Assembly: GCA_032358255.1 (NCBI GenBank)
Contig: JAULBX010030263.1
Span: forward strand, 434,001 to 498,000
Direction of reading: 5' to 3'
Length of the DNA: 64,000 nucleotides
From: Heterotrichella gracilis
Lineage: Eukaryota > Sar > Xanthophyceae > Tribonematales > Xanthonemataceae
The notes beneath the pieces are model-generated. The model was not told the origin of the DNA. It searched no databases and saw nothing but the letters and a program-made list of their open reading frames with translations. Position 1 is the first letter of the stretch. Each line of letters opens with the position of its first letter. Made by a program: the position numbers and the translations under genes. Positions 1-60,857 of this stretch are shown one piece after another.

Positions 1-276
1 CCGTGTTTACTGTAGTTCTATCTATAAAAAATGCGGTTGATTTCCCTTCTCTTTTCTTATTCCAACCCACTACCTGTGGTCCCCATGCGCAGTTGAACCG
101 CGACTCTGGCTTCTATCTACAAAAAATGCTTTTGATTTCCCTTGTCTTTTCTTTGTAACCCACTACCTTGCTCCCCACGCGCATTTAAACCGCGACTCTG
201 GCTTCTATCTACAAAAAATGCTTTTGATTTCCCTTGTCTTTTCTTTGTAACCCACTCCCCTGGTCCCCCTGCGCAG
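1..276 (+). repeat. Tandem copies of the intron end plus start of the first visible channel exon
   Basis: A unit of about 92 bases is repeated three times. The segment from the acceptor through the codons for NRDSGFY occurs at about 87-120 and 179-212 as degenerate copies, and at 271-304 as the real acceptor and exon. Between copies lies a shared pyrimidine-rich stretch (TTTCCCTTGTCTTTTC). The first copy keeps the CAG acceptor and the second has lost it. Confidence 0.85.
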
Positions 277-2606
277 ATCAACCGCGACTCTGGGTTCTAC
301 GTATGGACCATCGTGGTGCCAATATGCCTCACGGGCCTCATGGTGTTCTCAATTTTCATGTTCCCAGTCATAGACATATCCATGCGATTCCAGGCAATCG
401 TCACGCTCTTCCTGGCGCTGGTGGCGCTGCAGGTGGGGGGGGGCAAACCCGAAGCCTAAACCCTAAACCCTAACCCTAATGGTCACGTTCTTCCTGGCGC
501 TGGTGGCGCTGCAGGTGGGAGGGCGCAAACCCTAAACCTGAACCCTAAACCCTAACCTTTAAACCCCAATGGTCACGTTCTTCCTGGCGCTGGTGGCGCT
601 GCAAGTTGGGTGGGGGAGGCAATGCTAAATCTGAACATTAAACCCTAAACCCTAAGTCGTGACGCTCTTCCTGGCGCTGGTGGCGCAGGTGGGAAAGGGT
701 AACTCTCGAACCTGCATCATAATCCCCCCTGCTCCCTTTCCTCCCCAATTGTTGTGGTAAGCATCAACCTGCCCGCCTCCCTGCACACCCGTCCTGACAG
801 GGCCTGCCAGCAGCTCATCCTCCTGGCCCGCATCCACATGCTGGTGCTCTTAATCCGGTCATCCGTCACAACCTCTCATGCGCTGCTCTGCAATGAACAT
901 CATACCAAACAGGTAGCATTGCCATTATGCCCCGCTGACGCGTCCCCCCCTCTCCCTGCCCTCCCCAGTTCGTCGTGAACGCCAACCTGCCCGCCTCCAC
1001 CTACATCCTGCCCTCCCAGCAGCTCATCCTGCTCACCTACATCCTCATGCTGGTGCTGGCAGTGGAGTCATTCGGGGTGTTCTTCCTGGCAACCGCGCAG
1101 TCAAGGGGGGAGCAATACGTGGAGGAAAAAATGGTGTTGGAAAAGATGCAGCGGGTGATGGCGGAGGAGGAAGGGGGGGGTGTGGGGGGGGAAGGGGGCG
1201 AGGCGGGCGAGGACCAAAAGGGGCTGAAGGATGGGGATGGGGGTGGGGATGGTGCTCCTGGGGATGTGAAGCTGCAGGTGAGATCCTTGGCCACCCATTC
1301 ATGTCCCAGTCCATGTGTTTGCATCCCTTGTGCCCCCTTGCTTACCCTGTGGTGGTTTCGGGTAGGCTGTGCACAGGCCTATGGGTGGCCCTCCTCCACT
1401 GGGGCGTCAAGGTCCTATTCTCATCGTATTACCCTTGGTGGCGCCTATCCACATGACAGGACTGACGGCAACAGTAGCATGCGTGTGCACTGTGCACTAG
1501 CCACATGGAAAGGGTGTTGATGTCCTGAAACCCTCATCATCCATCCTTCTCCTCCTCCCCTGCAGGTTGAACCCAGCGTGAGCAGTGATGGCTCTGAACC
1601 CCCACTCCCATCAAAACCACCACCACCACTATCACCACCACCCACCGCAGCCACAGCCACAGCCAATGGCGACGCCAGCAGCACCCTGCAGGACCCGCCA
1701 CCCCCCGCTGCACCGCCACCCCCCCAGGATGGGGACAAGGTGGAGGGTGGAGACAAGGTGAGGGCTGGAGTCGGTAGCGATGGGGGGGTGACCTGCGTGT
1801 TAGATACCAGCATGCGTAAATCTCCGTATGCAAAAAGGTGCATGTATATCGCAGGCTGACAGTGACGACATGCAAAAAGAAGATGACGCCAAGTCCTTGC
1901 ATGATGACCACCTCACTCCCCCTGGCTCCCTCCCCAGCGAGACCACGCAAGGGGGTAAAGATGCCATCAAGGTGACTGGGGAGTCAGGGGGAGTAACACC
2001 AAGCAAGGCCAAGAGGAAGCGCCCGCCAGGCAAAGTCAGAAGGTGGTTTGAAAAGGTGCGGCCTGGGCTGGAACCTTAGCCAAAGGACTGTCGCAGCGCT
2101 CCACCCCTTTAAAACGTGGATTGCGGAGTTGTGCCCACAGGCCAATGAGAGCCATGGAGCGCAACTCCTGCATGTGCCCAGCAGGAAACTACAAAAATAT
2201 ATTGGATATATGTAGATAGGGTACAACTCTAGCCACCCTGCGCGCATGTCTCCACTTTTCTTTATTTGGCACCCCATTATATTACTTCCCTCCATCCCCG
2301 TTTGCCCCCCAGGTGTTCCGCCCCTGGCTCCTCCCCGCCCGCTGCATCACGCACCCCCTGGCCCGCACCCGCCTCACCCCGCACGAGCGGACCATGCTCA
2401 ACAACTTCATGGCACGCAAGATCGACACCTGGTGCGCGCTGCTGATGCTCCTTGCCTACGTCATCTCGCTGGTCCTGGTACTCACACTGAGCGCTGACGA
2501 CTACCGGAGCAAGTTTGACCTGAGCGTGCAGAGCGCGGTGGAGAAGGAGTACCCGGGGTACTACAAGATGGCGAGGCAGTTGCAGCAGAATGGGGGAAGG
2601 AGGTGA
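277..2606 (+). CDS. Pentameric (Cys-loop type) ligand-gated ion channel, C-terminal part
   Basis: Five exons fit in phase: 277-432, 969-1277, 1566-1757, 1855-2055 and 2313-2606 (TGA), giving 383 residues. The ligand-binding N-terminus lies off the window. Four membrane segments follow the Cys-loop receptor order. M1 contains YVWTIVVPICLTGLMVFSIF with the family's M1 proline. M2 runs from RFQAIVTLFLALVALQ to the NANLP loop and is split between exons 1 and 2. M3 contains SQQLILLTYILMLVL. M4, in the last exon, contains DTWCALLMLLAYVISLVLVL. Between M3 and M4 is a cytoplasmic loop of roughly 200 residues, with Gly/Asp-, Pro- and Ser-rich stretches and a basic patch (KAKRKRPPGK). The protein should be a pentameric plasma- or flagellar-membrane channel. 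Ligand and ion selectivity cannot be read without the N-terminus. The family call rests on M1-M3 order and the LP motif after M2. Confidence 0.82.
433..700 (+). repeat. Three copies of an exon 3' edge plus donor, spaced by CCCTAAA-like sequence
   Basis: The end of exon 277-432 (coding VTLFLALVALQ, then the donor) is repeated at about 480-519, 570-609 and 656-693. Each copy follows a short run of CCCTAAA-like repeats (about 447-478, 528-560 and 634-655). The third copy is shortened by several bases. Most copies keep a usable GTGGG donor, so they could act as decoy or alternative 5' splice sites. Confidence 0.88.
743..862 (+). repeat. Degenerate copy of the M2-M3 exon start
   Basis: This stretch matches the first 110 or so bases of exon 969-1277, including the polypyrimidine tract. 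It reads NLPAS, QQLILLARIHMLVL in place of NLPASTY, QQLILLTYILMLVL. It lies in the intron just before the real exon. The AG acceptor has decayed, so it is probably a fossil exon edge rather than an exon. Confidence 0.8.
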
Positions 2607-2639
2607 GGGGGGCGCTTGAATGCATGATTGCCAGGGTGG

Positions 2640-2720
2640 CATATGACATCCGGTGGGGAAGGAGTACCCGGGGCGTACTACCGCATGGCTGTGCAGCAAA
2701 GTACGGGGAGGTGAGGGGGG
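2640..2720 (+). repeat. Degenerate copy of the channel gene's last coding bases, in the 3' flank
   Basis: Bases 2648-2720 repeat the end of the last exon (GGAGAAGGAGTACCCGGGG through GGGGAGGTGAGGGGG), just past the TGA at 2606. This is another edge copy of the type seen throughout the window, here at the end of the reading frame. Confidence 0.75.
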
Positions 2721-5312
2721 TGCAAGGGAGGGAAGGGACCCCTTGAGAGGGTGCGGGGTGTGAGGCGGGGGGACATGGGGTTGATGGCGCACGCGGGCAG
2801 AATGGTTTCAAGTGGTGGGTGGGCGGGAGGGCGGGATCCCCTTGCCTTTTAGGGGAAGAGGGTTGAGGGGTATGTGCTGTTTATTTATACATCCTCGTCA
2901 AACTGCCATTGGGATGGATGCGGGGCGCGTGATTGCACTGCTACCGCGTAGGCATGTTGAGCGTGGGCAAGAGCGCAGATTTACAGCTGCCACCGTGCTG
3001 GCGCGTGTGGATGGGCGGTGTGCAGCATTGCAAACTATGCACTCCTTTGGCGTTGATTTTTTCCCTTTTCCTTTCCTTTTCTTTGTGAGTGGGAGCGGCA
3101 GGCCTGGGTTGCGCACAGATGATGGGTGTACATGCAGGTGAATGCTACTAGTGCGTACCAGGACCTGATGTATGCTAGGATGTGCCGTTCTAGCATTGTA
3201 TATTTCACCGGTGAACCCCTTTTGTGTGTTTTTATTTCACTTTGATTTGAATTTGAAAGACTTTTGACGGACGTGCAATTGAGTAGGTTTCCACTACTTT
3301 TACTGTTGTGACATCACCAAATTGGCGTTGAATGCCATACCATATATGGCAGTAGTTGAGAACATGTACCGAGTGCGGTACTGAAGTGACTCCTGAGCCC
3401 TCAGGGAGTCAACGGGATACAATGTTTATCCTAATCATTATCATCATGCAAGACTTGCATACTTAGTACGTCAACTTTGTATACAGTTTAATTCATTCCA
3501 AATCAGTTGTAACAGTTACATTTTAATTGCAATACTAAGTACTTAGAAGTCTTCCAAATCAGCTGCTAAGCACCAGTGGCACGCTGTTGCTTGCTCAATG
3601 ATAAATCAGTGAGGCACAATGGATACATTAATACCATGCCTCCGGGAGGGCCATAGCTATGTCCAACCGCTGAACCTGAGCCTTAACACCAATACCCAGG
3701 GTCTGTACTGCATTATCTGCATTATGATAATGCTCCATCCCGTCTAAAGGGCTGTTAAAAGTGCCACACGTACTGGTATGCTGCAGAGCAAACTCAGCTG
3801 GGTCTGGATCTGGGTGGTTAGACCTGCAGGTGCTGTCCTGTCTGAGTCAGTGATCAACAAACAACCTTTGCCTCGATCGACAAAAAAAGCATGTGATGTT
3901 TTTTTGGTGGCGCAGGTACAAATCCTGTGCATAATGATAATAGTTACGCAGCTACCATAATATGATGATATCATGTCTGGCGCGCGCACCTCAGCCTCCC
4001 AAGAAAAACCAGCCTGAAGCGCACATGTATAGTCTACTAGTCTTGACACTCGTTTTTAAGTCTTATAACCTTGAGAGTACTTACTGAACCGACTGTCAGT
4101 GCTGCTACAGCTGAACCACCAGCCCCTTGGTGGACAAAGATAATGCACCTAGGCTAAATACCCATCAGCTAGTCAAGGTGACCGACAACAAAGCTGTGTA
4201 TGGTACAGGCAACTACTGAGAAAGCCCCCGCTTTATTGCATGGCAACAGCCAGAGTCTTGACTGGCATCACCACAACCTGGCTCCACAACCACACTAGCT
4301 TGCCCAGATGTTGGTACACACACCAAGCCTTAGGCACAGCAAACACACCAATGGATAGTCCAGTGTGGCCATGCCAACCAAATGTGATTATACGCATGGC
4401 AAGCAATGGCCCTGCTAGATTGAGCATGCTATCAGCTGCGAAGCACCCACAGCCATCGGCTGCACATACTAGGGAGCTTGCGCACTCAATCTTCTCTCCT
4501 GGACTACATGTATGACACCACCACTGTACAGTGGTGGTGTCATAATCTCCTAGCACGCTCAAATGACAAGGTCCCAACCCTCTCATATATATCACTCAGC
4601 GCGTCAGCTCATTCTCCACCCTTCACAATATCAAATCCCCGTGGTGCACTCAATCCCTTCCCTGGAGCGTCGCTGCACTGGATTTGAGTGCACGCGCCAC
4701 GCTGGTACCTGACAGCCCTGGCTGCCACCATCAAATGCATACAAATTGCTCAAGAGCGAGGCCTACCCCAAGGCTGCGCTGCGCCCATACGCACGTAGCC
4801 ACTCCACCATGCACCGCGCCCTCATTTGCCACCCCACAGTGCTGCTCCACCACTCCATTGCTCCGCTGCCACACGTGTGTGCACACGTGTCTGTCCTACT
4901 GCTGCGCTGCCACTCCGGTGCCCACCCATGTGTATCCAGGTGCCACGCTGCCCTCCCCACCCCTCCCCTCAACCCCAAGAACGCCTAGCTTGGGTATGAA
5001 TAGGGACCCCAAACCACATACACTTGTGCGCCACGCTGCTTGCGCAATTTCTTTGGGCATTGTCAAAAATGCTGGGAGGGGCTGCTATACGAGTCTAGAT
5101 CCTCCAATCGCCAGTGCGTCTTCATCAACCCAACGTCAACGCTAACAGGATGCAATTCCAATGGGATTCAATCAAGTGTCACTTGGTTGCGTCTTTGGCA
5201 GCAATGGATAATAATTATTGCCAATACTATGGAAACTTCCACCATTCGATGGCTGACTAGGAATCTGACAACAATTGTAATTGCTGGTGATTGAACAGTA
5301 ATCATTGGCTGA
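2721..5312. other. Convergent intergenic region without a recognised gene
   Basis: This lies between the channel gene (+) and the end of the AP2 gene (-). Only short overlapping frames with no family resemblance are seen. The base composition swings between AT-rich (3200-3600) and C-rich (4760-4990). The one marked structure is a perfect palindrome at 4511-4544, listed separately. Confidence 0.7.
4511..4544. repeat. Perfect 34-base palindrome
   Basis: The left half starts TATGACACCACCACTGT and the right half is its exact reverse complement, with no spacer. It could form a cruciform or a hairpin in RNA. No gene overlaps it. A transposon end or a terminator of the convergent genes is possible, but nothing else supports either. 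Confidence 0.9.
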
Positions 5313-8300: not shown

Positions 8301-11300
8301 GCCCCTTGCGCACAGCACCTACTGCACCCCAGGTCTGCTCTTTAATCCCTCTGCACCAACTCATATATGGCCCCTGAAGGTTTTTACAGCGTCCAGGGGT
8401 TCTATGCAGTCACTATCTGGCAGGGCCCCCACACCCCCACCATCAGAACCCGCCTGCCGCATCCTGTGATAGTCTTCCAGGTCAGCGTGGTACTGGCCAA
8501 ACCCTAAACCCTAACCCTAACCCCAAAAAAGGTTGCCGCTGGCCCCTTCAGGCGCACCAGCGCCCAGTCATAGGCGCCAGTGGCGGATGCAACAAAAATT
8601 CCTAAGAAAATCAACTGCCAGGATATGCTATGTACCCCACTCTCCATTAGGCACCGGTTTCAAGTGGGAGTCTCCATACATTTTGATGCAACCCCGGCCC
8701 AAAAGACCCTCTCCCCTATACTAACCTGCTGTATCTTGTGGAAATCCGCCAGGTCGGAGCGGTACTCCCCCAGCCCAAAGTTGGTGGCTGCAGAGGGCCC
8801 CCTCAGCCTCACCAGCGCCCTGTCGTATGCGCAGGCTGCTGAGCGCTCGTCGTTGTACAGTCCCAGGTAGATGTGCTTGGACCCGGGGATGCCGATGCGC
8901 GCCTCCCAGCGGCCTAAGAAAAATGGAAATCATTCAAAGGGAACGCAAAGAAAAGAAAATCGACGCCAAAGTTGCTGCATCACAGTCCAGGCACATCTTC
9001 TCCAATTGACGTTCTGCGTGGTTACCATCCCCCCCTAGCCAACATGCAACGCCATGACCAGTGCTCCTGCACAAGTGTGGGAGTTCATAACCCTGCGCAT
9101 GTGGTAGCTGGTAGCATGCAGCGGCCTGCACATGCATTGATAACGAATTTGCTGGCCGTTGCATGCAACCAGGAACCACATGTGCAGGGTCACAACCCAC
9201 CGCAAATGTTCAGGAACACCGATCATGGCGACAGCAAAACATATACCTATATGGTAAGTGCCTGAGGCCCATTCAATCCAATGAGGCAATAACGGCTGCG
9301 ATAAAGGTGGCCATGATGGTGTTTGTAACAGGCGTACGTGTGGGCCGCTGCCAGCACCTTAGCTAGCCTGACGGAGTCAGGGAGTAGCTTGAATGGGGTG
9401 ACAGCGGGGTACATGTACGCCTGTAAAACCACTAGTGCCCTTTCCACTCTTACCGCCAAAGGCAACAGGTATACACATATTTTGACCAACTGAGCAGGCC
9501 GTCTGTTAAAACAGAGGCCATCGGAAAGGGGTATCTTGTGGTGGATGAAGCCACTTGCCAACCAATGGCATTTTTTGCAATCTGACTTTCTAATCCCGGA
9601 AATTCCTGGAAGCCGTTGGTTGGCGAGTAGCTTCCATATCCGCAGCTGACATGCATTCTCACACAATTGTTCTCCGAGGATGTATGCAAATGAGGGCCTG
9701 GGCCCCTGGTCACCCCCTACCAGCACTACCAGCACTACCAGCACTACCTGCTGCTGACTTAGTAGTGGCCACAATGAGGTGCCGCACTGAGGTCTAAATG
9801 AACAGTAAATGATATAAAATTAAGTTCAGCAGCTAATAAAATCAACTCTATGGACACTGACATAATAAATAATGTTTTTCTTAAAATATGAATGAAATAT
9901 CCCAGACACTAATAAAAATGTCATTGATACAGCTAGGGACACAGCAGCCCTGCTCCAGTCCACAAGTTGACACTCGGGTGGTGGTCGCCCCTATCTCCCC
10001 TCTACGGCTCACCAACAAATGCTGCATGCATGGTCACCCCCTGCATGCATTTGTGCCCCCACTTTGAAAATTTAACCGCCAAGCGCCCCCGCCTGAAGGG
10101 TGGTGCGTGACCCCCCTAAATGCACTTGTGCCCCCCCCCCCACTTTAAAATCCCCTTGAAATACCACAAAATCCCCCCCCCCCCCCCATCTGATGGGTGG
10201 TGCGTTACCCCCCTGAACGCACTTGTGCCCCCACTTCAAAGTATTCACCCCCCAACCCCCCCCCACCTGACGGGTGGTGCGTGACCCCCCTGAATGCGCT
10301 TGTGCCCCTGCTGAATCCCTGGGACTGCCTCCTCACCGCCATGATCAGCTCCTCCAGGCTGATGCCATCCATGCAGGCAAGCAGGTCGGTGTACCTGCGC
10401 ATATAAATGAGAACATTATAAATAAAAATTGATAAGAAAACAATAATGATGCTATCAATGCAGGCAAGCAGGTCGGTGTACCTGCGCAAGGGGTAGGGTT
10501 TTAGGCACCGCCAATTGTGAAGTAGAGGGTGGTGTATTTTTTTATCATTATTTTATTCAAGCGTTGCACTATTACTGTTTCTAGGGTGCAGGCAATTTAT
10601 TCTAGGGTTTAGGCAGTTGTTTCTAGGGTTGAGAGTAGCCAAGAAGTCCTCGTCAAGGCTGATGTCGTCCATGCAGGCAAGCAGGTCAGCATACCCGCGC
10701 AATGATTGTGGTGGAGGGTGGTAGATGGTGAGGCAGCATGGGGCGTGAGGCCCCATGATGGAGCGCATTGGAGACAGAAGGGTAGGGTTCTAGGGTACTA
10801 TGCAGCGGCTCATGGAGTGGCACTGCCAATGGGTCATAAGAAGCGATCTCGAGCACTGGCTGTACATCCCTCACACCGGTATGTATGGTCCATGGTCCAG
10901 CACCCAGCGGAGCACCAGCGGTACGTCACTCACACGGGCATTCAGACAGATATACTCTGGATAGCATGCCCTGTTGAAGCCACTGAATGACACCCATGCA
11001 TTCAGACACAGATACTCTGGCTAGCATGCCTTGTTGAAGCCACTCAGTGACACCCATAGCACCCCTGTCAGGAGCTCCAGTCACAAAATCTTCACAAAGG
11101 CTGGCCATCCAGTAGATATATGTCAGATATGCGGATATGCAGATACACAGATTTGAAGATGCGGATGTACCATGGGTCTCTCACACAGATACTCCGACAG
11201 TTGGAACACCCACATACAATAGACAGAAAAGAACTTAAGCAATTGCATGCTGCAACCATGCTGCACAATACTCCTGGACCAGTGACCCCCCCCCCCACAA

Positions 11301-17950: not shown

Positions 17951-20900
17951 CTATCGCCTGATCACCACCATGGGAGGTGGCGTATCCCCATCCACCTGCA
18001 CCACCACCTCACCATCCACACCCACCTCCACACCCACATCCCCGCTCCCCCTATCAGACTCATTTCCATCATCCTCATCTTCCTCCCCTTCGTCATCGTC
18101 ATCCTCGTCGCCCCCTTTGTCGATGCTGCTGCCCCCGAGACTGGCCGCTGTGCTAGGCAGCTGGGGTCCTCCCCCACTGGTTCCCTTTGAGCCACTCTCC
18201 TTGGACATCCATGCCTGCAAGGGAGGGAGGGAGAGCGGGGTTGGACATTCAATCACTCCGTTGTAGCTCATTGTGACGTATAGCAAAGTCTACATTTTTT
18301 CCATGATACAAAACACATACGTGAAAGTTGTATGATAGTACAATTTCTTCTTTTCACATTGTATGAAAATGTATGTATACTGTAGTGTCCACCACATCAC
18401 ATTTCCCTCCCCCTTACCGAGATTGATTTCCTCCCCTTCCTTGCCTTGAGCACCCGCTTGGTTCCCAGCCGCGTCAGCTGCTCAATCATATCCTGATCCA
18501 GACCAAGCAGCTCCATCACCTCACCCATGGTGTCGCTGTTGCGCAGCCCTAGAAGGGCTTTGGCGCCGCCGCTCATCTGGACACAATAAAATCCCAGCAT
18601 TAAATCACCATGCTGCACATGAAATCATGGCATGCCAGGAGGACTCCAACGAGATGTGTGGCTACCAGTATCCCCGCACCCCCCGCTCCTAACAGTATCC
18701 CACCTGCCTGCGCCCAAACTGGGCTCTGCATATGGCCATGAAGGCGCGCTGGTACTCCCCCAACAGGTGCTGCTTCACGCTGTTGCCTGCACAAGGGGGA
18801 GGCATTCGTATAAGACCCCAATACCCTAGACCCTATGTGTAGACCCTAGTAGGTGACGGCTCCACGCTGTTGCCTGCACCAGGGGGAGGCGTGCCAAGGA
18901 TACCCTAAATATCCACATTATGGAACCTGAAGGCACTCAAAATCACCTTTTTCATACCACCTGGGCCTGTACGACACGCAACCCCCCAAATCACACGCAC
19001 AGAGCCAAAAGCACATGCTCCTCAGCCAAAAAGTGCCCACGTGTCTTTAGGTCCACACACTCCCAAGCGTCTGGTGCAGGGTGGTCTCCTCAAACAAGGG
19101 TTTAGCGTTCAGGGTTTAGGGTTAGGGATTTACGCACTCCCAAACTTTTGGTGCAGGCTTGTCTCCACGAATGAGGGCCGCACAATGAGGTCCCCCATTG
19201 GGCTGATCAACACGCGGTGGCCGGGGCGCTTGTAATAGATCCCAAACTTGGCGTTCTTGGCAACGGCATCCTGGTACAAGAAGTGAACGTCAGGGGAGTG
19301 ACTATGGACTTTGAGCAAGTCCAGCGAGCGGGGATTAGAGTTTATGGGTCAGGATCTGTGGCCAGGGTAAGGGCAGTGTGTGACGGTGCGGTGTGCAGGA
19401 GGTGGATCCACTGCGGTAACTGGCCCGCTGCCCTTCACAGCAGACACACCCTATGGTTGATGACGTGCCAAGTCTCTGGAACGGTGGAGCGGATCCAAAC
19501 TCCTGAGCCTTCATCAATGACAGTAAACAACCAGGACATGCCCCAAAGATAGAAGCCGGTGGGCTTCGCTCCCCACCACACACTTGGTCATTGATGATGC
19601 GTCACGTTTAGGACAGGGCGAGATAAGGACAATTCCCCCACACCAAAACATGCTAAACCCTGGTCAAAACCCTACACTACACCACACCCACCCAGCCCGC
19701 ACCCCACCTGGTCGTTAATGATGTGCCATGTCTCGGGCACAGTGCGGTTGTAGTCGCGTGCAAAGGAGTGGTTTCCTGTCCGCGGCGCGCCATAGGTGTA
19801 GCACACCAGGTCAGTGCGCTTCAGGCATGGGCAGGCGGTGGCGATGGCGTAGGCGGCAAGGGTGGCAAGGGCGCCGCCCAGAGAGTGGCCTGTGTGAGCG
19901 GGGGGGTGCGAGGTGTGTGTGTGGGAGGTGATAAAAAGTAGCAGGGTGCTGTTGGTGGTTTAGAGTTTAGGGTTTAATCTGCATGGAGGGAACATGCAAG
20001 GTTGGGTGGAGGTGCCAAGGGTGGAGGTGCCAAGGGCAGAGCTTCACTCTACCTCTCAATTACTGGTGCCCCCTACCCCGTACACCGCTATCATACCCTG
20101 CCTACAAGGTCCAATCCAACTGACATATTCGGGACCAAGGTGTACAAGCTGGGAACTATTCACAACAGCTTGCTCCAAACCCTACTCCAAACCCCTACTC
20201 CCCACCCTCACCTGTGACCACCACCTTCACAATCTCTGCGCTCTCCAAGGCATTCAGGGTTGAAATGGTAACTCCTGAACCCTACTCAAACCCTCACCTA
20301 AACCCTAACTGCCCCTCCTCACCTGTGACCACCACCTTTACGATCTCCGCACTCTCCCCGTACACAATCCCGTGCACCGCCTCCACCACCTTGTCGCACA
20401 GCCCGTTGTGCACCCAGCTCTTGAGGAAGCCGCTGTGCACCGCAGGGCGGCTGATGCAGGGGGTGCCGCGCGCAGGGGGGTGGGTCATCTGCCAGGCCTG
20501 GGGAGAGGAAGGGGAGGGGAGATAGATAATCATGTTTCATAAAACGGGAAGGTCACCAGGGGAGGTTGACGGGGTCAATGCAGGTGGCAACAGGGACGCA
20601 ACGTGTTTGGCCACAAATTGATGTGCAACCACCACCAGCAGCTTCCCAACCCTCCCTAACCCACACATTTTCCCCCCAACCTTAACCACTGCCATCATCA
20701 GACTCTCCATTCCCCTTCCCCCCATGACCGCCCCAAAACACCCCACCTGCAGGTCCGCGCATGCGTTGCGCAGGCTTGCCGTCCCCCTGAACGCCACCAC
20801 CACGCATGTCTCGCTCCAGGCCACCACGCACTTTGTGTCCAGACCCTTCTCCCACAGCATGAGGTGGTGGGTCAGGCCGTACAGACGCATGGCGCTCTCA

Positions 20901-23900
20901 AGGGTGAACCGAGAGTTCTCAGCCTGCAGGGGAGGAAATGGAGGGGATAAAAAGGGGGATATGAATTTAATGTAGGGGAGGACATGTGGGGGTTAACGGC
21001 ACCCCTCCAGGGTGAAGCTGAGGAATGGCCCTTCAACCACCAGGACACAAAACCCTATCCAAACGCTGTTGGATGCCCAACTAAAACCCAGCCCCAAGCC
21101 TTCCTCATCTCCCTTCAGACAAATCCTGCCGCCAGCCGCCTCGTCAACACCCTAAACCCCGCGCCCTCACCTCCTTGTGGTCGCACATCATGTAGCTCCA
21201 GTACCACCTTGACCTCAAACCCTAAACCCTAAACCCTAAACCCCGCGCCCTCACCTCCATGTGGTCGTACATCATGTAGCTCCAGTACCAGGCCTTGAGC
21301 GCTGTCTCAAAGCAGAACATGGGCTCAGAGTACAGCTGGGACCCAAAGGGCTCGGGTAGGCTGCTGCTGCGTATGGTGATGTTGGTGGTCTTGTCGGCCT
21401 CGGTCCATGCAAACTCCTGGAGCCAAACCTGGGGAGGAGATGGGGGATTGGGTTGGGGATGGCGAGAGATGAAGCGGGATGCTGGTCAGGGGTGGGCAAG
21501 TGTTTAAAAAAAAAAAAATTGGTTATAATAGGTAACGATTATGGGGCTGTCCCTGGAGGGCATCAATGCAAAACTGCGACCCCATTGGCCTGGCAAGGGG
21601 CACATATTGCACGTGGTGATTATGGTCGCAACGCAGACCTGCGGAGGCACGTCAGTAGGGTTTGCCTATGTATTAGCCATGCCAAACTAGAGTATCACCA
21701 CCACCGGATGCATGCCCTCAGCATTGCCAAACCCCAGCTATGCCACTCTAGGGTTCACACTAAAGGTTTACCCCAACAAAGGGTTTGACTTACCCCCAGC
21801 ACTGGGTGCGGGTTCATGAACTTGCACCTTGGAGTTGTGAAGTACAGCAGCACCATGGAAAGGGCGGTGAAAACAACCTGGGGAGGGGGAGGGTGGGAGT
21901 GAGTGCGGCACCAGTGTGGGCACCAGATTGGGAAGCCAAACCGTAAAGCCCTAGACAGAACAGCACCATGGGTGGGGTTGGTGGGGTTGAACACAACCAC
22001 AAGGACGTCCGCACGTATTCATACATGTCCCGTATGCTGACATGAAACGCAATGCACGTATCCAAAACTGGTGCACAATGGGCATGCAACAGGAGCAATT
22101 GTAACCGCGACAGCCTATTATGCGCATGCCGCACGCACATGCACATGCCACACAGGTGTCGGCGTGCATGGCCACCCCCCGGCCCACACAGAAGCATGCA
22201 TGCATGTGTGTTAGACATCCAAGGACAGACGGGGTGCAGATGCAGCAGCGGACCTACCCCCACCAGGTTGACGAACGCATCTGAGCACACCCGAAACCCT
22301 AAACCTTAACCCCACCAGGTGGACCACACCACTGGCCCACACTGCCCACCCATAACCATGCATGTGCAGTGCAAAAGAGCGAGATGCATGCACACGCGTT
22401 CAACGCCAAGGGTGGTTGCTGGGTGCCTGCGCCTGTTGCGTGTGCGTGCATCTGGTTTTGCCTTCACTACTTGGCTTTTCCCCACACCGCGCACTCATCA
22501 TAGTGCACCTGCGTGTACTGAGCCAGGACAGGATGCATGTTCAACAAGAGTCCTGGCACAGTATGTATGCGCAGGAGGTGTGTGGCTGCGTGCGCGCATG
22601 GATTAGGGATTTTAAGGTTTAGGGCGCCACTCACAAACATGGCTGTATACCCCAGCCATGACATAATGAAGCTCTGGCAGCTGTCCAGCCCCACCAGGCT
22701 GTACACATGGGTTAGGGTTTCTAGGGTTCAGAGGCGCCACTCACAAACATGGGTGTGTACCCCAGCCATGACAGAATGAAGCTCTGGCAGCTGTCCAGCC
22801 CCACCAGGCTGTACACATGGGTTAGGGTTTCTAGGGTTTAGGCCCCACTCACAAACATGGGTGTGTATCCCAGCCATGACAGTATGAAGCTCTGGCAGCT
22901 GTCCAGCCCCACCAGGCTGTACACAACCACGGTGATGAGGAAGAACACGAGGACGGGTAGGCGCATGCGGGCCTGCGGGGGACACACAGGCATGGGTTAG
23001 GGTTTAGGGTTTAGGGTTTAGGGTTTGTGCGCATGCGTGCCTGCGGGGAACACACAGGCACGGTTAAAAGTTCAGGGTTTCTTAAACCCTTATGCAGTTC
23101 ACATTACCCTAAACCCTTCACCACAGTATGGGCAGGCGCATACCGGCCTGCGGGGGTTGACAAGCATGGACATGCGGGTACCCTAAAACCTTATTAAGGC
23201 CTGGATGGGTTGCCACAAGTTCTTCAGAACTGGGGTGGGCAGGCACACGGGTCACTCCCCATTCTAGGGTCGAACTGTAGTTGGCCAGCTTGTACTCCCT
23301 GTAGTAGGGCTTACGTCTCAGGGTTACAGTTCAGGGTTTAGGGTCCCCCCCCCTCACCTGGCTGCGGACCATGGAGTTGGCCAGCCTGTACTCCCTGTAG
23401 GGCACAGTGCGCAGGAACTTAGCCATGTTTCTCAGTAGCAGGCAAAACACAATGACGTACAACCCCGTCACACCCACGATGCAGCCCAGCAGTGCGGTGA
23501 TGACCCCGGTGGATGCGCAGTCATAGGGCTGGTCCTGGCATGAGGGCAGGGAGGCCAGCTGGCGAAAGGATCCCGTGTGGGCTGCAGGGGGCAAGGGTAT
23601 TGTTAGGGTCTTGGTGGATTGGGCTTGGTGGGGTTGCATGTGGGATGGCATGCAGGGGCCGGAGTACATTGAGTAGAGAGATATGAACCATGCGTGGCGT
23701 AACTTGCTGGGGTATGATGCATTGTTGCTAGGATTTTGCTAGGGGTTTGTGAGGGTTTGCAACAAGGTGCATGAGATTGGATTCGCTTCGGTCAACATGT
23801 GCACGCAAACCATTCACACATGCTGTGGATTGAGTTTGCATGCTGAGTGCAGGTGAGTTTCCCGTACATCAAACAAGTACTGTCGCATATTGGTTTCCAC

Positions 23901-33816: not shown

Positions 33817-34116
33817 ATCAGGCTGTCCGGTGTCTCTACTCTTTCAGAAGCCTTCTGTGGCACATCCACAGCCTGTCCCGTGCCCCGCCCCGCCCCACAT
33901 CCTATGAAATGCCACCCCGCAATTCAACGCCACAACAGCTTGCGCAGCTGGACCAGGACCACGCTATATCAGTGCTACATCCCCACCATGGCTCCCCCCC
34001 CTCCCACCACCACCGCTCCTCTCACTCACTTCTCCTCCCCCTCCCATTCCTTGCTATTGCTGCTACATACGGCACCCATGCTTGGACGTGGCACTCCGCT
34101 GTCTACCCGCCAGGTG

Positions 34117-43672
<9,556 letters not shown>

Positions 43673-45505: not shown

Positions 45506-48500
45506 ATGCCTCCCCAGCACCACCACCACCCCCTGCAGCGGGGGTGGTGGCGGCAGTGCTGGCAGCTGGTGCTACTGGCGCTGGCCCTCGCACATGTGGG
45601 GCGGGCCGCAGCCGATGTGGTGTACTTCAACTCAGGGGTAAGCACGTGCATCCAAAACCCTAGCTGCAAACCCTACTGGATTGTGCCAGTGTTGGCTCTA
45701 TGCACCCCTTAGGGCAGTTGCCATTGGGTGCATGGTGGCGTGATCCGGCCATGGCGCGTACCACTTTAATGCATGCCTGCCTGGGATGTTGCACTGCAAA
45801 AATGTGTATTTTTATACAATGAAAGCATGCCTCCCCCTGCACCACTCCCCGCTGGAAGGCACCACACACGCATGAAAATGTTGCTTACTTCACTTACAAA
45901 TGCAATCGCTCTCCCCTCAATCCCCTCTCTCCCACTCAGCCCCGTCCCCCTCTGCCCTCCCCTGCTGACCCACCCCCCTTACCCCCCTTGCAGGACACCC
46001 AGACTGTCACCCGGTCCATGATCCCTCAAGTGCTGCAAATGGCAAACCCATTCGGTGAGTACAACTGATGTGACTATCGAAACCCTCGGCAGGGTCTTGC
46101 CTTATCCCACTGCAATGCCGCATGGCTGTGGCCATGGGCGCTGTTGGCACTGCCCTTGGCATGGCTTACAGCCCCATCTTATCTGCTGCACCACCCACCA
46201 CCCACCACCCACACGTCATGTACTCCCCACCCGCAACCCATCACCAACACGTCATGTACCCACTTGATGTGGCAACACCCTCGTCTGTGCCTCTCTTCTC
46301 GCATACCTGCCACTGTTCCCCTGACAGAGCATCCACCATCGGAGCACACAGCCCACCCACGCAATCTAAACCCAGGGTCAGTTGACAAACCTAGCCAGAA
46401 ACCCTAGCCCAAGCCCTAGCTTGACGCTGCTCCCCCCACTTGCAGCGGCCATGCGGTCCATAGGTGCAGCCATGCAGGGGTCGGTGCAGCCCGCCATCGC
46501 CAGGCGAAAGCTCATCGACATTTCTGCGGCGTACAAAACCCTAGCCGAGGCCCAAAACCCTACCATGGAGGTCCCCAACCAAGCCCTCACCCGCACACAC
46601 CCCGGCCTGGCGCGCCCAAACCCTAGCTCGGGCCAGAAGAACCCTACCGCATGGCAGCAGCAGCAAGACCCTCTAGGGTTGCGGCAAAAGCCTACGCAGG
46701 GTGTGGCGGCGATGGCGCCTGGGGCTATGTCCCACGGGGATGAGGAAGTCATCCCTGAAATGGGGTTGGTTTCCGAGGTTGGCAATACTGTTGGCGTGCA
46801 TGGCTCTGCAGCCGAGCTGGAAAAGGCGGTGGGGGGCATTGGAGGGGCTGATGGGAGCTTGAAAGGTGGGTGGCAACCCTTAGGGTCTGGGTATGATCTC
46901 GCATTCATTCCAGTATACTCATGTGTAAGATTGCTGTGGGGTTTCTACCCCCTGGACATTGCCTATTCACCACCAAACCCCTTTACTCAACTGTAAAAAA
47001 ACGTATTGTTTGTAACACCTGTGATCACCCAATACACAGATCGTGTGGTTTCCCAACGCAGCTTATTGAAGGGAACGCAAAAAGGCGGATTGAAAAAGGC
47101 AATATTACACCACCATGCTTGGCTCCCCCTCCTGCCTGGATACTAAACCTCTCCCCTCGATTAAAACCCCCAATCCTCCCACCAACACCCCCAAGGTCAA
47201 CCGAGACCAACCAGTGCGCGTGCCCTCACCTGAAACCCCAACAGGACCCTTCAAAACCCTATCCCCTTGCAGGCTCCACCAACAGCGACTAAGTGTGCGT
47301 GCGCAGATATGGCGGCGAGTGGTTCACCTTCACAGCCGCGCCCTAATAAACCCAATAAAAATCCCCCAAAAACTCCCCACTAAAAACCCTTACCCACCTT
47401 TTCCCAACCCCCCAAAAGCTCTACCATGACCGACCGAATGCGCATGTGGTCACTTAAACCCCAACACAACCCTAACAAAACCCTAACCCCTCTTTAGGCG
47501 CCACTAAGAGCGACCGAGTGCGCGTGCGCGGCTTTGATGGCGAGTGGTTCACCTTCCCCACCCCCCAGCCTGCCACCATCAACATCCTCACAGAGTCCCG
47601 CTACCAGCTCAATGCACAGCTGGGGCCCCTGCCGGCAGACGGGGATGGGCAGGGTCCCAGCCGGTCCCAAGGGGGAAACTACATGATGGCTGTGGGGCTG
47701 CGGTGCGAGAAGGCCAGGCTGTCGGTGGAAGCTAGCGGCAAGGGGAGCGTGATAGGTGAGTGGGACCCACTACAGCGCATGCATGCAGTGGTGCAACCCA
47801 CATTTGTGAACAGGTTGGCAGGCTGACCACTGAAAACCAAAGGAGGGCAGCTTTTGTGATGGTGGAACCCTAGACAGGCAAATGTCGCCCTGTGCTCGCG
47901 CCATGAGCTCTTCACTCATTAGCCTAACGTATTTATCCGTAAATTCATTGCCACTACATGATGTATTGAAGTCCCGCCAATACCACTCGTAAGACCATGG
48001 TAGATAAAACCCCACACGCCATTATAAAAATATCATTGCTTCAACTAAAGTTGAGAAAAACAGTTCACAGCAGTTGCTAATCTATCTAGTCAGGCACCCC
48101 TCTCCCCTCCTGTGATAATTGACGCTGGGGATCTGTACCCAAAGGTGCCAATTCCTGCAATATTGCCCCTGATGTGGTCACGGTGGCATAAGAATAATAC
48201 ATACCCTGTATTTTATTACTATCAGATAGTGGCTGGCGCTTCTGATCACCCTAAACCCTAAACCCAGTCTGGCTTGATCGTCGCAGACACTTAACCTAGC
48301 AGGGACTTGGAGCTTAGGCAACACTACTTGGAGTGTTTACAGGACATGATGTGAATGTTGGCTACCCTCTGTGGGCCTGTTGTGTCAGGTGGCACAAAGC
48401 CCAGCATGGCTAAGTGGCCACTACCTGTGCAATCAAATACCTCCTTCATCACCATAACACCTGCAGCCGCACACCCGTATACTCTACAGGTAAATGGTGC

Positions 48501-50336
48501 CGTATTCCATCGCGGATGTTTAACAAGAGTAACCTATCCAAACCCTAACCAAACCCCATTTGAAACCAGAAACCGGGGTAACATGCAAAACAGATCGTGG
48601 CCTGGCTGCCTAGCCCGTTGCAGCAGTATGCCCAGTCATGACAGTGCACTGGGGCTAGTGCGCACTCAGGAGGGATGTGAGGTTCTGGCCGGCATTCTCC
48701 GGGCCATAGGGTTTAGGGTGTCATGGCTACACTAGTAGTGTTCAAAGCTGTGGGCGCACAGCCAGGGTGAAGGCCGAGGAAGGTATCAGGTATCTAATTT
48801 AAATTGGCAATTGTATACGTCATGATACATATGTAAAATATTCCCTCCCCATTCCTTCGGGTGATATTCCCTCCCCTCTCCCCCCTTCCAGCTATGAAAA
48901 AATGTTTCAAATGTGGGCATGCTCATGATCAATTGACTAAATGCAGTTGTACCCCTCATCTTCCTTCACCAATCTTGTCACCTTTGCCCCCCCTGCCCTT
49001 CACATACATGGCGTTGTGTGTGTAATACTGCGTTTTGGGGGCGCTGTTGCCGCAACGTGGGCCTTTGTTGTGGCTGAGAATCACAACCACACCCACCAAG
49101 CTACATGTGTGTGGAATAGGGCGCCACATGTGCCAAGACTGTCCAAAAAAGGGTTAAATTGGGGGCGAGTATGTAAGGGTGGGGATACATCGCGTAACCA
49201 GTTCCCAGCTGCTGGCACCACCCCAGTCAGTGTGTACATCACACATCCTCCTCTTCCCTCCCCAGTACCCGTCCAGACCAAGCCATCACCCCCTTATGCT
49301 AGTAATACCTGCACCCAATTTCCCCCCCTTCTCATCTCCTACTCAACCCCCCTCACCCCCTTGCCCTCCCCAGTCCGCCTCCAAGACCAGGACATCACCC
49401 CCTTTCTGCTGCCAAACGTGGCAGTCACACTCAAGTCCTTCCCCTCCATCGCCCTGGTATTAAAGCAACCTGGCATCAGGGGGGGGCAGACCCTCATCGT
49501 CGACTGCCCCGCCATGCGCTTCACTGCATACAGCGCGGCTGGCGAGGACTGGATGGATGTGGATGCCGCTGTGCTGAGCAGCAGTGTGGTGCACATGCAT
49601 GGCGTGATGGGGCAGACGTGGAACAGGTGAGGGGTTGGGCTAGGGTTTGTGATAGGGTTTGTGATAGGGTCTGGAGTGGGGATTGGAGACAGGATCTGCC
49701 GTGCTGAGCATTAGTGTGGTGCACATGCACAATGGTTGGGATACATGTGAAACAGGCTAGGGTCTGGGGTAGGGTTTTTGCAGGTGGTGGGGCACATGAC
49801 GGCATGACGGGGCAGACTGTGTACAGAAATAGGGTTTGGGACAAGGTTTTCATAAGTGGTGATGTGCCATGAATGGGTGGAAAAGCTGCATTCCAGGGAA
49901 ATAACCAGTTGAGCAGTGGTGAGAGTCCTTGTAGGGTTACAGCTTGCCATGAATTTGTGCGATGCCATGCCAATATCCCTCCTGCATCCGCCCCTTCTCT
50001 CACTTTCAAAACCACCCACCACGTCTCCACGCCTCACCCCCCCTACCCCTACCCTTCCACAGGATCGTGCCCCACGCCGCCCAGCTATTCGAAGACAACC
50101 TCCCCCGCCTGCTGTACGAGGGCAACGCCACAGACTACAACCTCACAGATGGCTTGCTGGGGGTTGACTTCCCCTTCAACCTGTTTGACGCCCCCCCTGA
50201 GCGGCGCAAGGGGGCGCACAACCACGGCGAGGCGCCCCTGGCCAACCGCAGGCGCATGTTTGAACAGGAGGTGACCCTGGCATCGGGCCAGTTTGCCCAG
50301 AGGCAGCCGCTGGGGACCTCGAGCATGATGCACTGA
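45506..50336 (+). CDS. Secreted protein resembling the plant root-cap family
   Basis: Exons 45506-45637, 45994-46054, 46446-46865, 47498-47755, 49374-49626 and 50063-50336 join in phase to 465 residues. A signal peptide is clear: RGWWRQCW, then the hydrophobic LVLLALALAHVGRAAAD. Residues from about 205 on (VRGFDGEWFTFP, then ESRYQLNAQLG, then NYMMAVGLRCEKARLSVEA) follow the von Willebrand D/root-cap layout in which a probe of the protein's own fold (GxDGxxFxF, LINAxF) is followed by a C-terminal part ending near HMHGVMGQTWNR. Land-plant members end similarly with a GVLGKTYR motif. The function of the family is not established; a cell-wall or extracellular matrix role is likely. Exon 3 is low-complexity and partly built from telomere-like sequence. 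Assignment to the family is from remembered motifs and is moderate. Confidence 0.6.
46540..46700 (+). repeat. Telomere-like CCCTA motifs inside a coding exon
   Basis: Within exon 46446-46865, AAAACCCTAGCC, AAAACCCTACCATG, AAACCCTAGCTCG, GAACCCTACCGC and CTAGGGTTGCGG follow in 150 bases. They are translated as KTLAE, QNPTM, RPNPSS, KNPTA and LGLRQ. The frame stays open across all of them. Confidence 0.85.
47270..47497 (+). repeat. Two copies of the acceptor side of root-cap-like exon 4
   Basis: The start of exon 47498-47755 (coding ATKSDRVRVRGFDGEWFTF) recurs at about 47276-47335, where GGCGAGTGGTTCACCTTC is exact but a stop has arisen in the frame. A shorter, decayed copy lies at about 47428-47450. 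CCTAAC and AACCCT runs lie between. Confidence 0.85.
47756..49373 (+). other. Long intron of the root-cap-like gene
   Basis: A 1.6 kb intron holds no recognisable gene. It includes two CCCTAAA units at about 48250-48266 and several single AACCCTAACC fragments (about 48540-48560). Direct joining of the flanking exons is in phase. Confidence 0.55.
49660..49860 (+). repeat. Copies of the 3' edge of root-cap-like exon 5
   Basis: The exon end (GCTGTGCTGAGCAGCAGTG, then GTGGTGCACATGCA, then GGGGCAGAC) recurs at about 49698-49760 and, in part, at about 49788-49835. TAGGGTTTGTGATAGGGTTT-type sequence fills the junctions. Confidence 0.8.
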
Positions 50337-58331: not shown

Positions 58332-60857
58332 TCAGTTGCACCTCGTGTCATGGTCGTAGCTCAGCCAGGGCCCGTCCCACGGGCTGTCCACCATGCGCTG
58401 GTACAGCTTTGCAGTGTCCCACATCACCTGGGCGGCGGCCTCGCGGTTCTTGAAGGTGGGGGCGCGCAGGTGGAAGCTCACCTGTGGGGTATTAGAGTTG
58501 AGCTTTATAAATCCTAAAGGGCTAGGGCTCGCTTCTGGTGGGTGATTAGGTTTAAAACTTTGAAGTTCAGGAACTGGAGGTGGGGGCGCGCATGTGGAAG
58601 CTCACCTGGTGGGGAGGATTAGGGGTTTACCTTCAGGGTTGGGGTAGTTGAAAGTGGGGGCGGCAGCATGGCCATGCAGGGGGTGGGGTTTGTCGACCGG
58701 GGCATAGGGTATCTACCAGGACTCAAGATTATCCACCATGGTGTGGGGTTATGTTATTATATGAGCGTTTTCCCCCGCCGCACTTGCGACCTCAGCTGCG
58801 CCTTGCACTGCTTAGGGTTTACGGTTTAGGGTTTTCCCCGCCACACCTGCGACCTCAGCTGCGCCTTGCACTGTGTAAGGTTGAGGGTTTAGGGTTTTTC
58901 CCCAGGGTGTAGGGTTTTTCACTCCCCACCTGCGACCTCAGCTGCGCCTTGCACTGCCTGTTGCAGCAGTCGCTCTTCACGTTGCGGTACAGGCGCTCAA
59001 GCAGGGACCCACCCGCGTTCAGCCCCGGGTCAAACAGCGGGTACTCGGGATAGGCCGCAAACCTGCCAGGATAAGAAAAAAAATAAGAATAATAATAAGG
59101 AGATAATTTATCAAATAATAGTAATGTACCGGCCGCGCCCCAAAAGGACATAGATCACGCACTGGGACAGGGACAGCATCTCTGCAGAGGAGGTGACCAG
59201 AGCAATGTGCGCTCATATGCAAAAATACCGCACCTCCCGGGGTCGGTCGCCGCATACCCCGCCCACCAAATGCAGTAGGTGAGCAGGGTGTCCGACCCGG
59301 GGATCCACTCGGGGACGTGGTCTGAGGCCACGCACTCCTCCATTTTTGCAAGGGGGACTGCGCGGAAGAAGGCGGAGGAGAACACCAGCCCCGCGCCACC
59401 AAACATGATGTACTCCCAGCGGGGCTGGTGGCCATGGCCAAACTTGGTGGGGGAGTTGCAGACGGTGGGGGGGTCCTCGGGGTGGCGGTAGATGCCCCCC
59501 CGGGTGTCGTTGGCGCACAGAAGCTGGGAGGTGCAGGGGCAGCCCTCGGGGAGGTCAAACCTTGCGCCGGGAAGGTTTGGCCTGTGCGTAGCGCAGGGAG
59601 GGAAGAGGGTAGTTAGGGTCATGTGGGGCATGTGCTGACCCTAACATGGCCATGCGCGGCTGGTTTGTGAACCCTGTGGCAATGGCTCAATGGCTGTGCG
59701 ACTGCAGTGCCTGCGCTGTTGGATGAAAATGGACCCCTGCCATTGCGCTGCAGTGGTGGGTGCGTCACTCACATATGACGCAGCATGTACAGGGTTTTTT
59801 GCTCATAACCTGAAACGGGATTTAAACATCAGATATTTTAACAACGGATCTAATGTACACGCTGCAGTCCTATATATTGAAGCATGGTGCACCCTAGGCA
59901 AGGGACTCCCCAAAAACCCTCACCTGCGCGCCTTGAAGCCGCATGGCAGGCAGCGTGGCGCCGCAGGCGCCGGCCGGTTGCGCTCATCCGAGTAGTACGG
60001 GTGGTCAAACCACAGGTGGTCGGTGAGCACGTAGGGCACCTTGGGGTCAAGAAATCTGGTCATGTGGGCCACCCCCTCCAGGAAGAACATGGTGTCATCG
60101 TCGCCAAAAAGGAGCCAATCAAAGGGCGTGTTGGTGTTGGTGAAGTGCTGCGCGGCGTAGAAGGGGGCGAGGGCCAGCTTGGCTTTCCATGTGTGCGGGG
60201 GGGCCTCGGTGTAGAGCTGCCAGGTCTCGCCTTGGCGCTCGGGGACTGGGGATGATCAGCAGGGGGAAAGGGGGTGTTGGTGGGGGATGAGAAAAGGGTA
60301 TTGAGGGTTCGGGGTTGAGGACACAGGGTTCTGAAGATAGGGTGTCCGGAGGTGATACCAGGAGAAGTGAGGCGGTGGGTCACGGGGGGTAGGGACATGG
60401 GGGAGTGGCAGGCAGGGAGGCTGGCATGAGCGTATGCCCACAGTGCAAAATGCAAAGTGCGTATACTCTTCAGTAGCACCAGTGCAGGATTTCCGCAGAA
60501 TACCAGCGCATGGTTTCAATCAGGCACTAGGGTAGGGTTTAGGTCACAGGGTTTTGATAGGGTTTCATTAGGTATGAGCATAGCTGTACCTGGCCGCGCC
60601 TGCCTGTCCTGCACGATGGTGGCGTTTGCGCACAGTATGAATGTGGGCACGCCCCGCCGCCAGCTGGCACCCGCATCAGCAAACAGCGGCTCATCCATGC
60701 CTGTGGCGGTGACCACCTTGAGGCCGCCAGGGGGGGGCAGGGCGATGTGGAAGGAGGGGGGGGAGCACTGGACCACCCACAGGGGGAGAAGGATGGATAG
60801 CAGGAGGAGGAGGAAGGGGGCCTGTGAGGGTTGGAGGGGGTGGAAGGGGGGTGCCAT
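58332..60857 (-). CDS. Fringe/GT31-like glycosyltransferase
   Basis: Exons 60857-60590, 60245-59924, 59581-59234, 59062-58930 and 58481-58332 (TGA) join in phase to 406 residues. It is a type II Golgi protein by layout: a short cytoplasmic end, then a signal anchor (FLLLLLSILLPLWVVQC, about residues 15-31) and a lumenal catalytic part. FDWLLFGDDDTMFF supplies the metal-binding DxD (Asp 138-140), followed by the YYSDERNRP segment. EYIMFGGAGLVFSS (about 254-266) matches the GGAG motif of Fringe and plant DUF604 proteins. The C-terminal part has a Cys-rich CCNRQCKAQ and ends YDHDTRCN. The donor sugar and acceptor are not known. Family level is GT31-like, from motifs only. Confidence 0.82.
58560..58680 (-). 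repeat. Copies of the 5' edge of the glycosyltransferase last exon
   Basis: Plus-strand GGTGGGGGCGCGCA, then TGGAAGCTCACCTG repeats at about 58575-58606 what the exon has at 58456-58486. A part copy (GTGGGGGCGGCA) is at about 58655-58667. TAGGGTTTA is nearby. Confidence 0.75.
58785..58929 (-). repeat. Two copies of the 3' edge of glycosyltransferase exon 4 with TTTAGGG-like junctions
   Basis: Plus-strand TGCGACCTCAGCTGCGCCTT, the end of exon 59062-58930 with its donor, recurs at about 58847-58866 and 58785-58806. Junctions hold TTAGGGTTTACGGTTTAGGG and GGTTTAGGGTTTTT. Confidence 0.9.

Follow-up and report, generated by a model that had tools for sequence, protein, structure and literature searches.

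The DNA described here is a 64-kb stretch of the Heterotrichella gracilis genome (GenBank assembly GCA_032358255.1, contig JAULBX010030263.1, positions 434,001 to 498,000 of the forward strand; hereafter the window), in which many exon edges are repeated in tandem and the repeats are frequently joined by sequence resembling the telomere unit TTTAGGG. All of the evidence comes from this one window, as assembled. Its GC content lies between 51% and 61% in 2-kb steps, and spliced genes are present; tRNA and Rfam scans of the window detected nothing. Seven genes were modelled, with 57 introns and 123 exon edges, where a preliminary description of the same stretch had spoken of eight genes. The identities of the AP2, class 3 lipase and bZIP genes are supported by Pfam, and that of the alanyl-tRNA synthetase (AlaRS) gene by homology, whereas the ion-channel, root-cap-like and glycosyltransferase genes had no Pfam match at an E value of 0.01 and simply retain the names given in that description.

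The AlaRS gene model is the most secure of the seven, and it was drawn independently of the exon-edge finding. Its exons were placed by a hidden Markov model built from 67 bacterial alanyl-tRNA synthetases, and with exact GT-AG borders they form a single open frame of 888 residues and a stop, separated by introns of 262-468 bp. The other six genes were modelled by a simple exon-chain decoder trained on AlaRS, followed by corrections by eye to one lipase border and three AP2 borders, including an AP2 acceptor moved to 8913. Left uncorrected, the decoder placed the end of lipase exon 22972 at 22913 and the start of an AP2 exon at 10481, both of which were changed by eye; it also took the copy at 40353-40400 in an AlaRS intron for an exon, a candidate overruled by the homology model. 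Three of the 20 copied edges described below (lipase donor 22853, AP2 acceptor 10394 and AP2 donor 10267) were set by eye after the copies had been seen.

For the detection of copies, each edge was represented by a 60-base query (45 bases of exon and 15 of intron, with telomere 6-mers masked) and compared with 600 bases on either side, and 615 shuffled comparisons, with a maximum score of 34, served as the null. Twenty-eight of the 123 edges score above the 99% point of this null; 19 of them lie above its maximum and one equals it, giving 20 copied edges in six genes. The lipase gene contributes eight (of 34 edges), the ion-channel-like (3/10) and root-cap-like (3/15) genes three each, and the AlaRS (2/33), AP2 (2/13) and glycosyltransferase-like (2/9) genes two each, with none in the bZIP gene (0/9). 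These are the six genes named in the preliminary description, and its count of at least fifteen copied edges is exceeded under the present models, the three borders set by eye included. The 20 edges have 34 extra copies between them, from one to three each, again in agreement with that description, and GT or AG is kept at the splice position in 23 of the 34. Both exon ends are copied, as had likewise been reported, and the telomere-like repeats occur in both orientations.

Masked BLAST detected 26 local duplication families with identities of 70% to 100%; 25 lie in gene models and one outside, and the null, a single shuffled window, gave 0 near pairs. An edge is touched by 16 of the 26 families under the rule that it must lie at least 8 bases inside a copy, and more families come within a few bases of one. 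At least 10 coding bases are present in a copy in 22 of the 25 genic families, as compared with a mean of 9.9 and a maximum of 20 in 20,000 simulated sets, a null that uses present-day intron lengths and thus sets the expected coding share somewhat low. Among the 14 families whose best pair is at least 90% identical, 12 have coding sequence in a copy, where 4.9 would be expected (p 0.0002). Both copies are coding in none of the 25 families; a coding segment is never repeated as coding sequence, and tandem exon duplication was rejected as a description of these arrays. When windows were instead counted at the 99% score, 28 of 123 edges, 53 of 374 exon-interior windows, 208 of 1093 intron-interior windows and 59 of 1355 windows outside gene models reached it, and by this simple control the edges hardly differ from the interiors of introns. 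However, that control is contaminated, since intron copies of edges are themselves counted as intron windows, and the families were therefore used instead.

Table 1. The AlaRS gene, the copied exon edges and a related intron unit, with positions in the window; base counts refer to telomere-like bases per join.
Feature	Position	Strand	Copies and joins
Ion-channel-like acceptor 277 (intron end and exon start)	16..299	+	About three tandem copies; joins with 6 and 0 bases
Ion-channel-like donor 432	395..694	+	Four copies; three CCCTAAA-rich joins (31, 34 and 17 bases); none past last copy
Ion-channel-like acceptor 969	723..1057	+	Upstream copy, 73%; no telomere join
Ion-channel-like donor 2602	2536..2723	+	One weak downstream copy, 73%; score 30, below null maximum; no telomere-like bases
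AP2 donor 10267 (by eye)	10037..10308	-	Four copies; no telomere join by main borders
AP2 acceptor 10394 (by eye)	10349..10702	-	Three copies; telomere-like units in one of two joins
Lipase acceptor 18786	18765..18890	-	Two copies; AGGGT-rich join, 18 bases
Lipase donor 19138	19055..19166	-	Two copies; telomere-like join, 26 bases
Lipase donor 20323	20198..20357	-	Two copies; telomere-like join, 32 bases
Lipase donor 21255	21149..21298	-	Two copies; TTTAGGG join, 27 bases
Lipase donor 22853 (by eye)	22597..22925	-	Three copies of about 110 bp, telomere-like sequence after each
Lipase acceptor 22972	22961..23153	-	Three copies; telomere-like joins, 27 and 30 bases
Lipase exon end before donor 23358	23276..23400	-	Two copies; telomere-like join, 18 bases
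Lipase acceptor 26028	25996..26221	-	Three copies; two CCCTAAA joins, 20 bases each; none past last copy
AlaRS gene	34117..42177	-	16 homology-defined exons
AlaRS intron after exon 12	36104..36174	-	TTTAGGG repeats (36129-36154) between identical 21-bp direct repeats
AlaRS donor 40528	40343..40607	-	One downstream copy, 95%; no telomere join
AlaRS donor 42028	41795..42063	-	Three copies, GTTAGGGTTT-type joins; perhaps a fourth, decayed, at 41795-41827 (by eye)
Root-cap-like acceptor 47498	47204..47556	+	Score equal to null maximum; decayed upstream copies, CCCTAA-type joins
Root-cap-like acceptor 49374	49256..49404	+	One upstream copy; no telomere join
Root-cap-like donor 49626	49568..49821	+	Decayed downstream copies; TAGGGTTT joins, 22 and 14 bases
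Glycosyltransferase-like acceptor 58481	58451..58666	-	Upstream copies; weak telomere-like joins, 17 and 12 bases
Glycosyltransferase-like donor 58930	58773..58957	-	Three copies; two CCCTAAA joins, 22 bases each; none past last copy

The arrays (Table 1) usually take the form (X-telomere)n-X, in which X is an exon end with its donor or an exon start with its acceptor; the simplest X-telomere-X unit is found in an AlaRS intron, away from any exon edge. The joins have a median period of 89.5 (range 63-225); the borders of X are uncertain, with zero homology lengths at three joins under ungapped extension. At least 6 telomere-like bases are present in 26 of the 34 joins and at least 12 in 24, whereas length-matched random intron intervals outside the arrays give means of 9.4 and 3.4 and maxima of 20 and 10, respectively (2000 draws), in keeping with the earlier claim that telomere-like units occupy many junctions. 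Telomere-like coverage is 17.8% of the intron bases in arrays, 5.3% of other intron bases and 2.1% outside genes, and the overlap between telomere-like sequence and duplicated intron stretches amounts to 662 bases against 262 (standard deviation (SD) 65), a value reached by 0 of 5000 circular shifts. Four copied edges have joins without any telomere-like base (ion-channel-like acceptor 969, AP2 donor 10267, AlaRS donor 40528 and root-cap-like acceptor 49374), although one join at the AP2 donor shows 7 such bases under alternative borders obtained by ungapped extension; the duplication thus does not need telomere units.

The motif itself, TTTAGGG/CCCTAAA, occurs 65 times in the window, against 7.0 (SD 2.7) in shuffles, and in the introns its cycle outranks the 19 other seven-base cycles of the same composition, covering 7.2% where these cover 1.4-3.5%. 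The 6-mers of the telomere cycle together cover 0.7% of exons, 7.2% of introns and 2.1% of the remaining sequence. Two consecutive units, counted in all registers and on both strands, are found 99 times for TTTAGGG, 10 times for TTAGGG and 0 times for TTTTAGGG; the plant-type telomere unit, which is described as ancestral in green algae (PMC8226300), is the dominant one in the window. There are 72 telomere-like clusters of at least 12 bases, 59 of them intronic, 12 outside genes and one in an exon. Direct repeats scoring above 28 flank 24 of the 59 intronic clusters, as compared with 5.2% of random intron positions, 1 of the 12 clusters outside genes and 0 of 1 in exons. Facing telomere-like repeats (TTTAGGG, then CCCTAAA) lie at 54016-54044, just upstream of the bZIP gene model, and a minisatellite at 12775-13128, with about five 70-bp units that each contain a telomere-like core, lies in a long predicted AP2 intron at no modelled edge. 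TGCATGC and GCATGCA are also among the commonest 7-mers of the window (42 each), a palindromic excess that does not consist of telomere units.

Telomere-like stretches also crowd just inside donors where no duplication was detected, a pattern that is absent from the preliminary description. At least 8 telomere-like bases fall within the first 70 bases from the donor in 25 of the 57 introns, and all seven gene models are represented: lipase (11/16), AlaRS (4/16), root-cap-like (4/7), glycosyltransferase-like (3/4), ion-channel-like (1/4), bZIP (1/4) and AP2 (1/6). In the 40 introns free of duplication families, the first 60 bases hold 233 telomere-like bases, against 108 (SD 27) by rotation, and 0 of 5000 rotations reach this value; taken by gene group, the donor-side excess stands out in the lipase gene and in the pool of the five smaller genes. 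Coverage peaks 20-40 bases after the donor, in the same bin in introns with and without duplications, and on the sense strand the donor half of introns contains 439 G-rich and 653 C-rich telomere-like bases.

The preliminary description proposed a single mechanism for the copies and their joins. The link between the two holds in both directions tested (24 of the 34 joins, 24 of the 59 intronic clusters) and supports one process connecting exon-edge copies with telomere-like joins in this window, whereas the telomerase that was suggested is only something we infer. The explanation favoured here, at a probability of about 0.5, is that the arrays are scars of the repair of double-strand (staggered) breaks near splice sites. 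Complementary overhangs would result near an exon-intron boundary from two opposite-strand nicks tens of bases apart or from a staggered break that has been resected; were both overhangs filled in, a role for which the CST complex with DNA polymerase alpha-primase, which fills telomere ends, is a good candidate, a stretch X would be present on both ends and joining would give X-X. If one 3' end had gained telomeric repeats before joining, from telomerase or from captured telomeric DNA, the product would be X-telomere-X; alternatively, an older telomeric insert at the site may itself have been the weak spot. The X-telomere unit could then multiply by slippage or unequal exchange, and the copies in the intron would decay. 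The window itself shows the duplications, their telomere-like joins, the association of the two, the excess at edges and the lack of coding-coding pairs, whereas we infer the breaks, the overhangs, the involvement of CST and telomerase and this order in time.

Overhang fill-in and telomeric insertion at breaks, taken together, predict the X-telomere-X form, and they further predict a G-rich stretch after the first copy and a C-rich stretch before the second. In the pooled joins, G-rich stretches lie nearer copy 1 in 8 of 9 cases and C-rich stretches nearer copy 2 in 11 of 15 (p 0.009), where two ties and one join of unclear orientation are dropped and joins within an array are not independent. 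At ion-channel-like donor 432, lipase acceptor 26028 and glycosyltransferase-like donor 58930, telomere-like bases are present in every join and absent from the flank past the last copy, as would be expected if the telomere stretch arose with the join.

A number of observations weigh against this explanation. The orientation signal falls to 5 of 5 G-rich against 4 of 8 C-rich cases (p 0.10) with one join per array, taken next to the functional edge and omitting arrays without telomere-like bases there, as well as ion-channel-like acceptor 277 (6 bases) and glycosyltransferase-like acceptor 58481 (unclear orientation); G-runs at donors or C-runs at acceptors could also mimic the orientation rule. 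Telomere-like units are found in 11 of the 24 introns with a donor G-run and in 14 of the 33 without one, and with no such association the priming of telomerase on donor G-runs is unsupported. Fewer than 6 telomere-like bases are present in 8 of the 34 joins, and only 9 of the 59 intronic clusters score higher than the 99% point of the null for introns (70, a value raised by positions within arrays). Of the 20 arrays, 14 have 6 or more telomere-like bases in the flank past the last copy and 7 have 12 or more, so that in many of them the telomere-like sequence could belong to the repeat itself and, in the 7, could be older than the duplication. In AlaRS, whose model alone is defined by homology, copies are found at just 2 of 33 edges, and the donor-side excess is not significant (60 bases against 42.7, SD 15.8, p 0.15). 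Finally, the evidence is limited to a single 64-kb window. The per-array orientation result, the possible mimicry by runs and the missing G-run association are what hold break repair at the probability given above, and they leave some weight with a reading in which the telomeric sequence came first.

According to that reading, which is possible but less likely, intronic telomeric inserts are fragile or slippery sites, next to which the edge DNA was later duplicated through slippage of the replication fork, template switching or unequal exchange, a step that would not involve telomerase. Interstitial telomeric tracts are described as unstable (PMC6410037; PMC11626172), and the donor-proximal units in 25 of the 57 introns, together with the excess in the family-free introns (233 bases against 108, SD 27), are consistent with inserts that precede any duplication, as is the telomere-like sequence past the last copy at lipase donors 21255, 20323 and 22853 and at AlaRS donor 42028. 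However, three arrays with telomere-like joins have no such bases in the far flank, four edges were copied without a telomere-like join base, and exchange between flanking units needs one unit on the exon side of X, where coverage is only 0.7%. The excess at edges, as distinct from the joins, could be attributed to survivorship and visibility: duplications would arise anywhere, coding ones would be purged, and edge copies would remain recognisable through their conserved source. Edges probably do dominate in part for these reasons, because splicing hides an extra copy of an edge while a copy within an exon would break the protein, and copies in the intron stay readable because the source copy, being conserved, slows the divergence of the pair; the 0 of 25 families with two coding copies agree with this. 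Yet the excess persists among young copies (12 of 14 families at 90% identity or more include coding sequence), so that survivorship and visibility are seemingly not the whole story, and the telomere joins are left unexplained. As a full account this is unlikely, but since it concerns the edge bias only, it can be combined with either break repair or pre-existing telomeric inserts.

More doubtful still is the idea that the donor-near units are functional elements under selection, either telo-box-like DNA sites or splicing signals, to which the duplications are incidental. CCCTAA is a possible branch site, and the peak 20-40 bases after the donor, shared by introns with and without duplications, and the occurrence of units in all seven gene models are compatible with a function. 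However, units of either orientation are frequent in the donor half of introns, contrary to what an RNA signal would lead one to expect; coverage peaks at the donor and not at the usual position of a branch site, so that this role is judged unlikely; and the number and purity of the units vary widely. A search of open-access titles and abstracts on telo-boxes with introns found no intronic telo-box element. Mobile elements of the introner type, or intron gain by tandem duplication, are very improbable. Like the arrays, they involve repeats at splice sites, and a tandem duplication that carries splice signals can create an intron, but here different introns share almost nothing (three matches of 22-31 bp among 57 introns), the extra copies, judged by eye, sit next to the edge that they repeat rather than at the opposite end of the intron, no new exon boundary is seen, and the AlaRS frame is uninterrupted only with one copy of each edge. 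With no shared intron family among the 57 introns, the introner reading is contradicted in the window, and the earlier statement that neither introners nor tandem exon duplication fit the pattern stands. An assembly artefact is equally improbable: although the evidence is assembled sequence alone, the copies mostly differ from one another, the joins differ in length and the AlaRS frame is intact.

Several components of the favoured break-repair explanation have precedents. Studies of horse, human, chimpanzee and rodents link telomeric inserts to break repair and explain them by staggered breaks and, for some, telomerase; a minority have a simple target duplication, reported at 3 of 66 horse loci (with a few more among complex cases), 6 of 130 in rodents and 4 of 25 in primates (PMC7215372, PMC2246262). 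The sequences in the window resemble these short interstitial telomeric insertions in having internal telomeric repeats, some with direct target duplication; the known inserts are absent from exons, and those of the window nearly so, with one of 72 clusters exonic. They differ from the inserts as described in those reports in that direct repeats flank 24 of the 59 intronic clusters, in that the arrays multiply, and in that the units crowd near donors, where human inserts fit random intron placement. In human and mouse cells, small tandem duplications at 3' overhangs are made by CST with DNA polymerase alpha-primase; they are attributed to the filling-in of the two overhangs followed by end joining, and the CST complex also fills telomere ends (PMC8355091). 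The copies described here are likewise short, direct and adjacent, with a median period near the class of less than 100 bp in that study, whose account of the duplications apparently includes neither telomeric sequence at the join nor a link to exon edges, both of which are seen here (PMC8355091).

The units share with the telo-box of plant promoters their telomere-like sequence, short length and position near genes, but unlike it they are intronic, lie beside donors, occur in both orientations and vary in number. The arrays are also local, as are plant tandem duplications, which Vaughn and Bennetzen (2014) reportedly attributed to two nearby opposite-strand nicks; a 2016 PNAS paper, said to be by Schiml, is likewise reported to have shown that adjacent single-strand breaks lead to local tandem duplications in plants. 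One open-access library, searched by titles, abstracts and some passages, gave no description of tandem exon-edge copies with telomere repeats at their joins. A pattern scan of viral contigs found nothing, and a lipase-exon scan of viral contigs gave 25 pattern matches, none of which was confirmed; neither scan yielded a relative. As far as was seen, the parts (overhang fill-in and telomeric inserts) are already known, and the combination, its frequency and its placement at exon edges are apparently undescribed.

The repair of breaks close to splice sites may often draw on telomere-related machinery. A more far-reaching proposal, put forward only tentatively and somewhat unlikely, is that this lineage has a recurrent telomere-type repair (telomerase extension and CST-primase fill-in) at exon-intron boundaries, which would duplicate edges, lay telomeric repeats just inside the intron, lengthen introns from their ends and plant decoy splice sites; if so, much donor-side intron sequence would be decayed telomere. 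Were the pattern genome-wide, it would preserve a readable record of intragenic repair in which telomere machinery takes part and would point to one concrete way in which introns grow and spare splice sites arise, and given the wide range of identities among copies, the order of events could be worked out from close strains.

Several further repeats were observed in the window. A direct duplication of 91 bp at 62985-63381 (95%, period 306) lies outside the gene models and has no telomere-like bases, and a dispersed pair of 81-bp repeats with 79% identity (6206-6286 and 39099-39179) has one copy inside an AlaRS intron. The region of the last AlaRS exon, at 34095-34300, has a second copy about 2.8 kb downstream at 31318-31523 (81% over 207 bases), and a further matching pair is found at 31065-31165 and 33750-33851 (75%), which suggests that the end of the gene has been duplicated on a larger scale. 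At its other end, the first 14 of at least 80 loci matched by one N-terminal exon, among the matches listed, have cyanobacterial names, and this resemblance to cyanobacterial enzymes suggests that AlaRS is an organellar-type enzyme.

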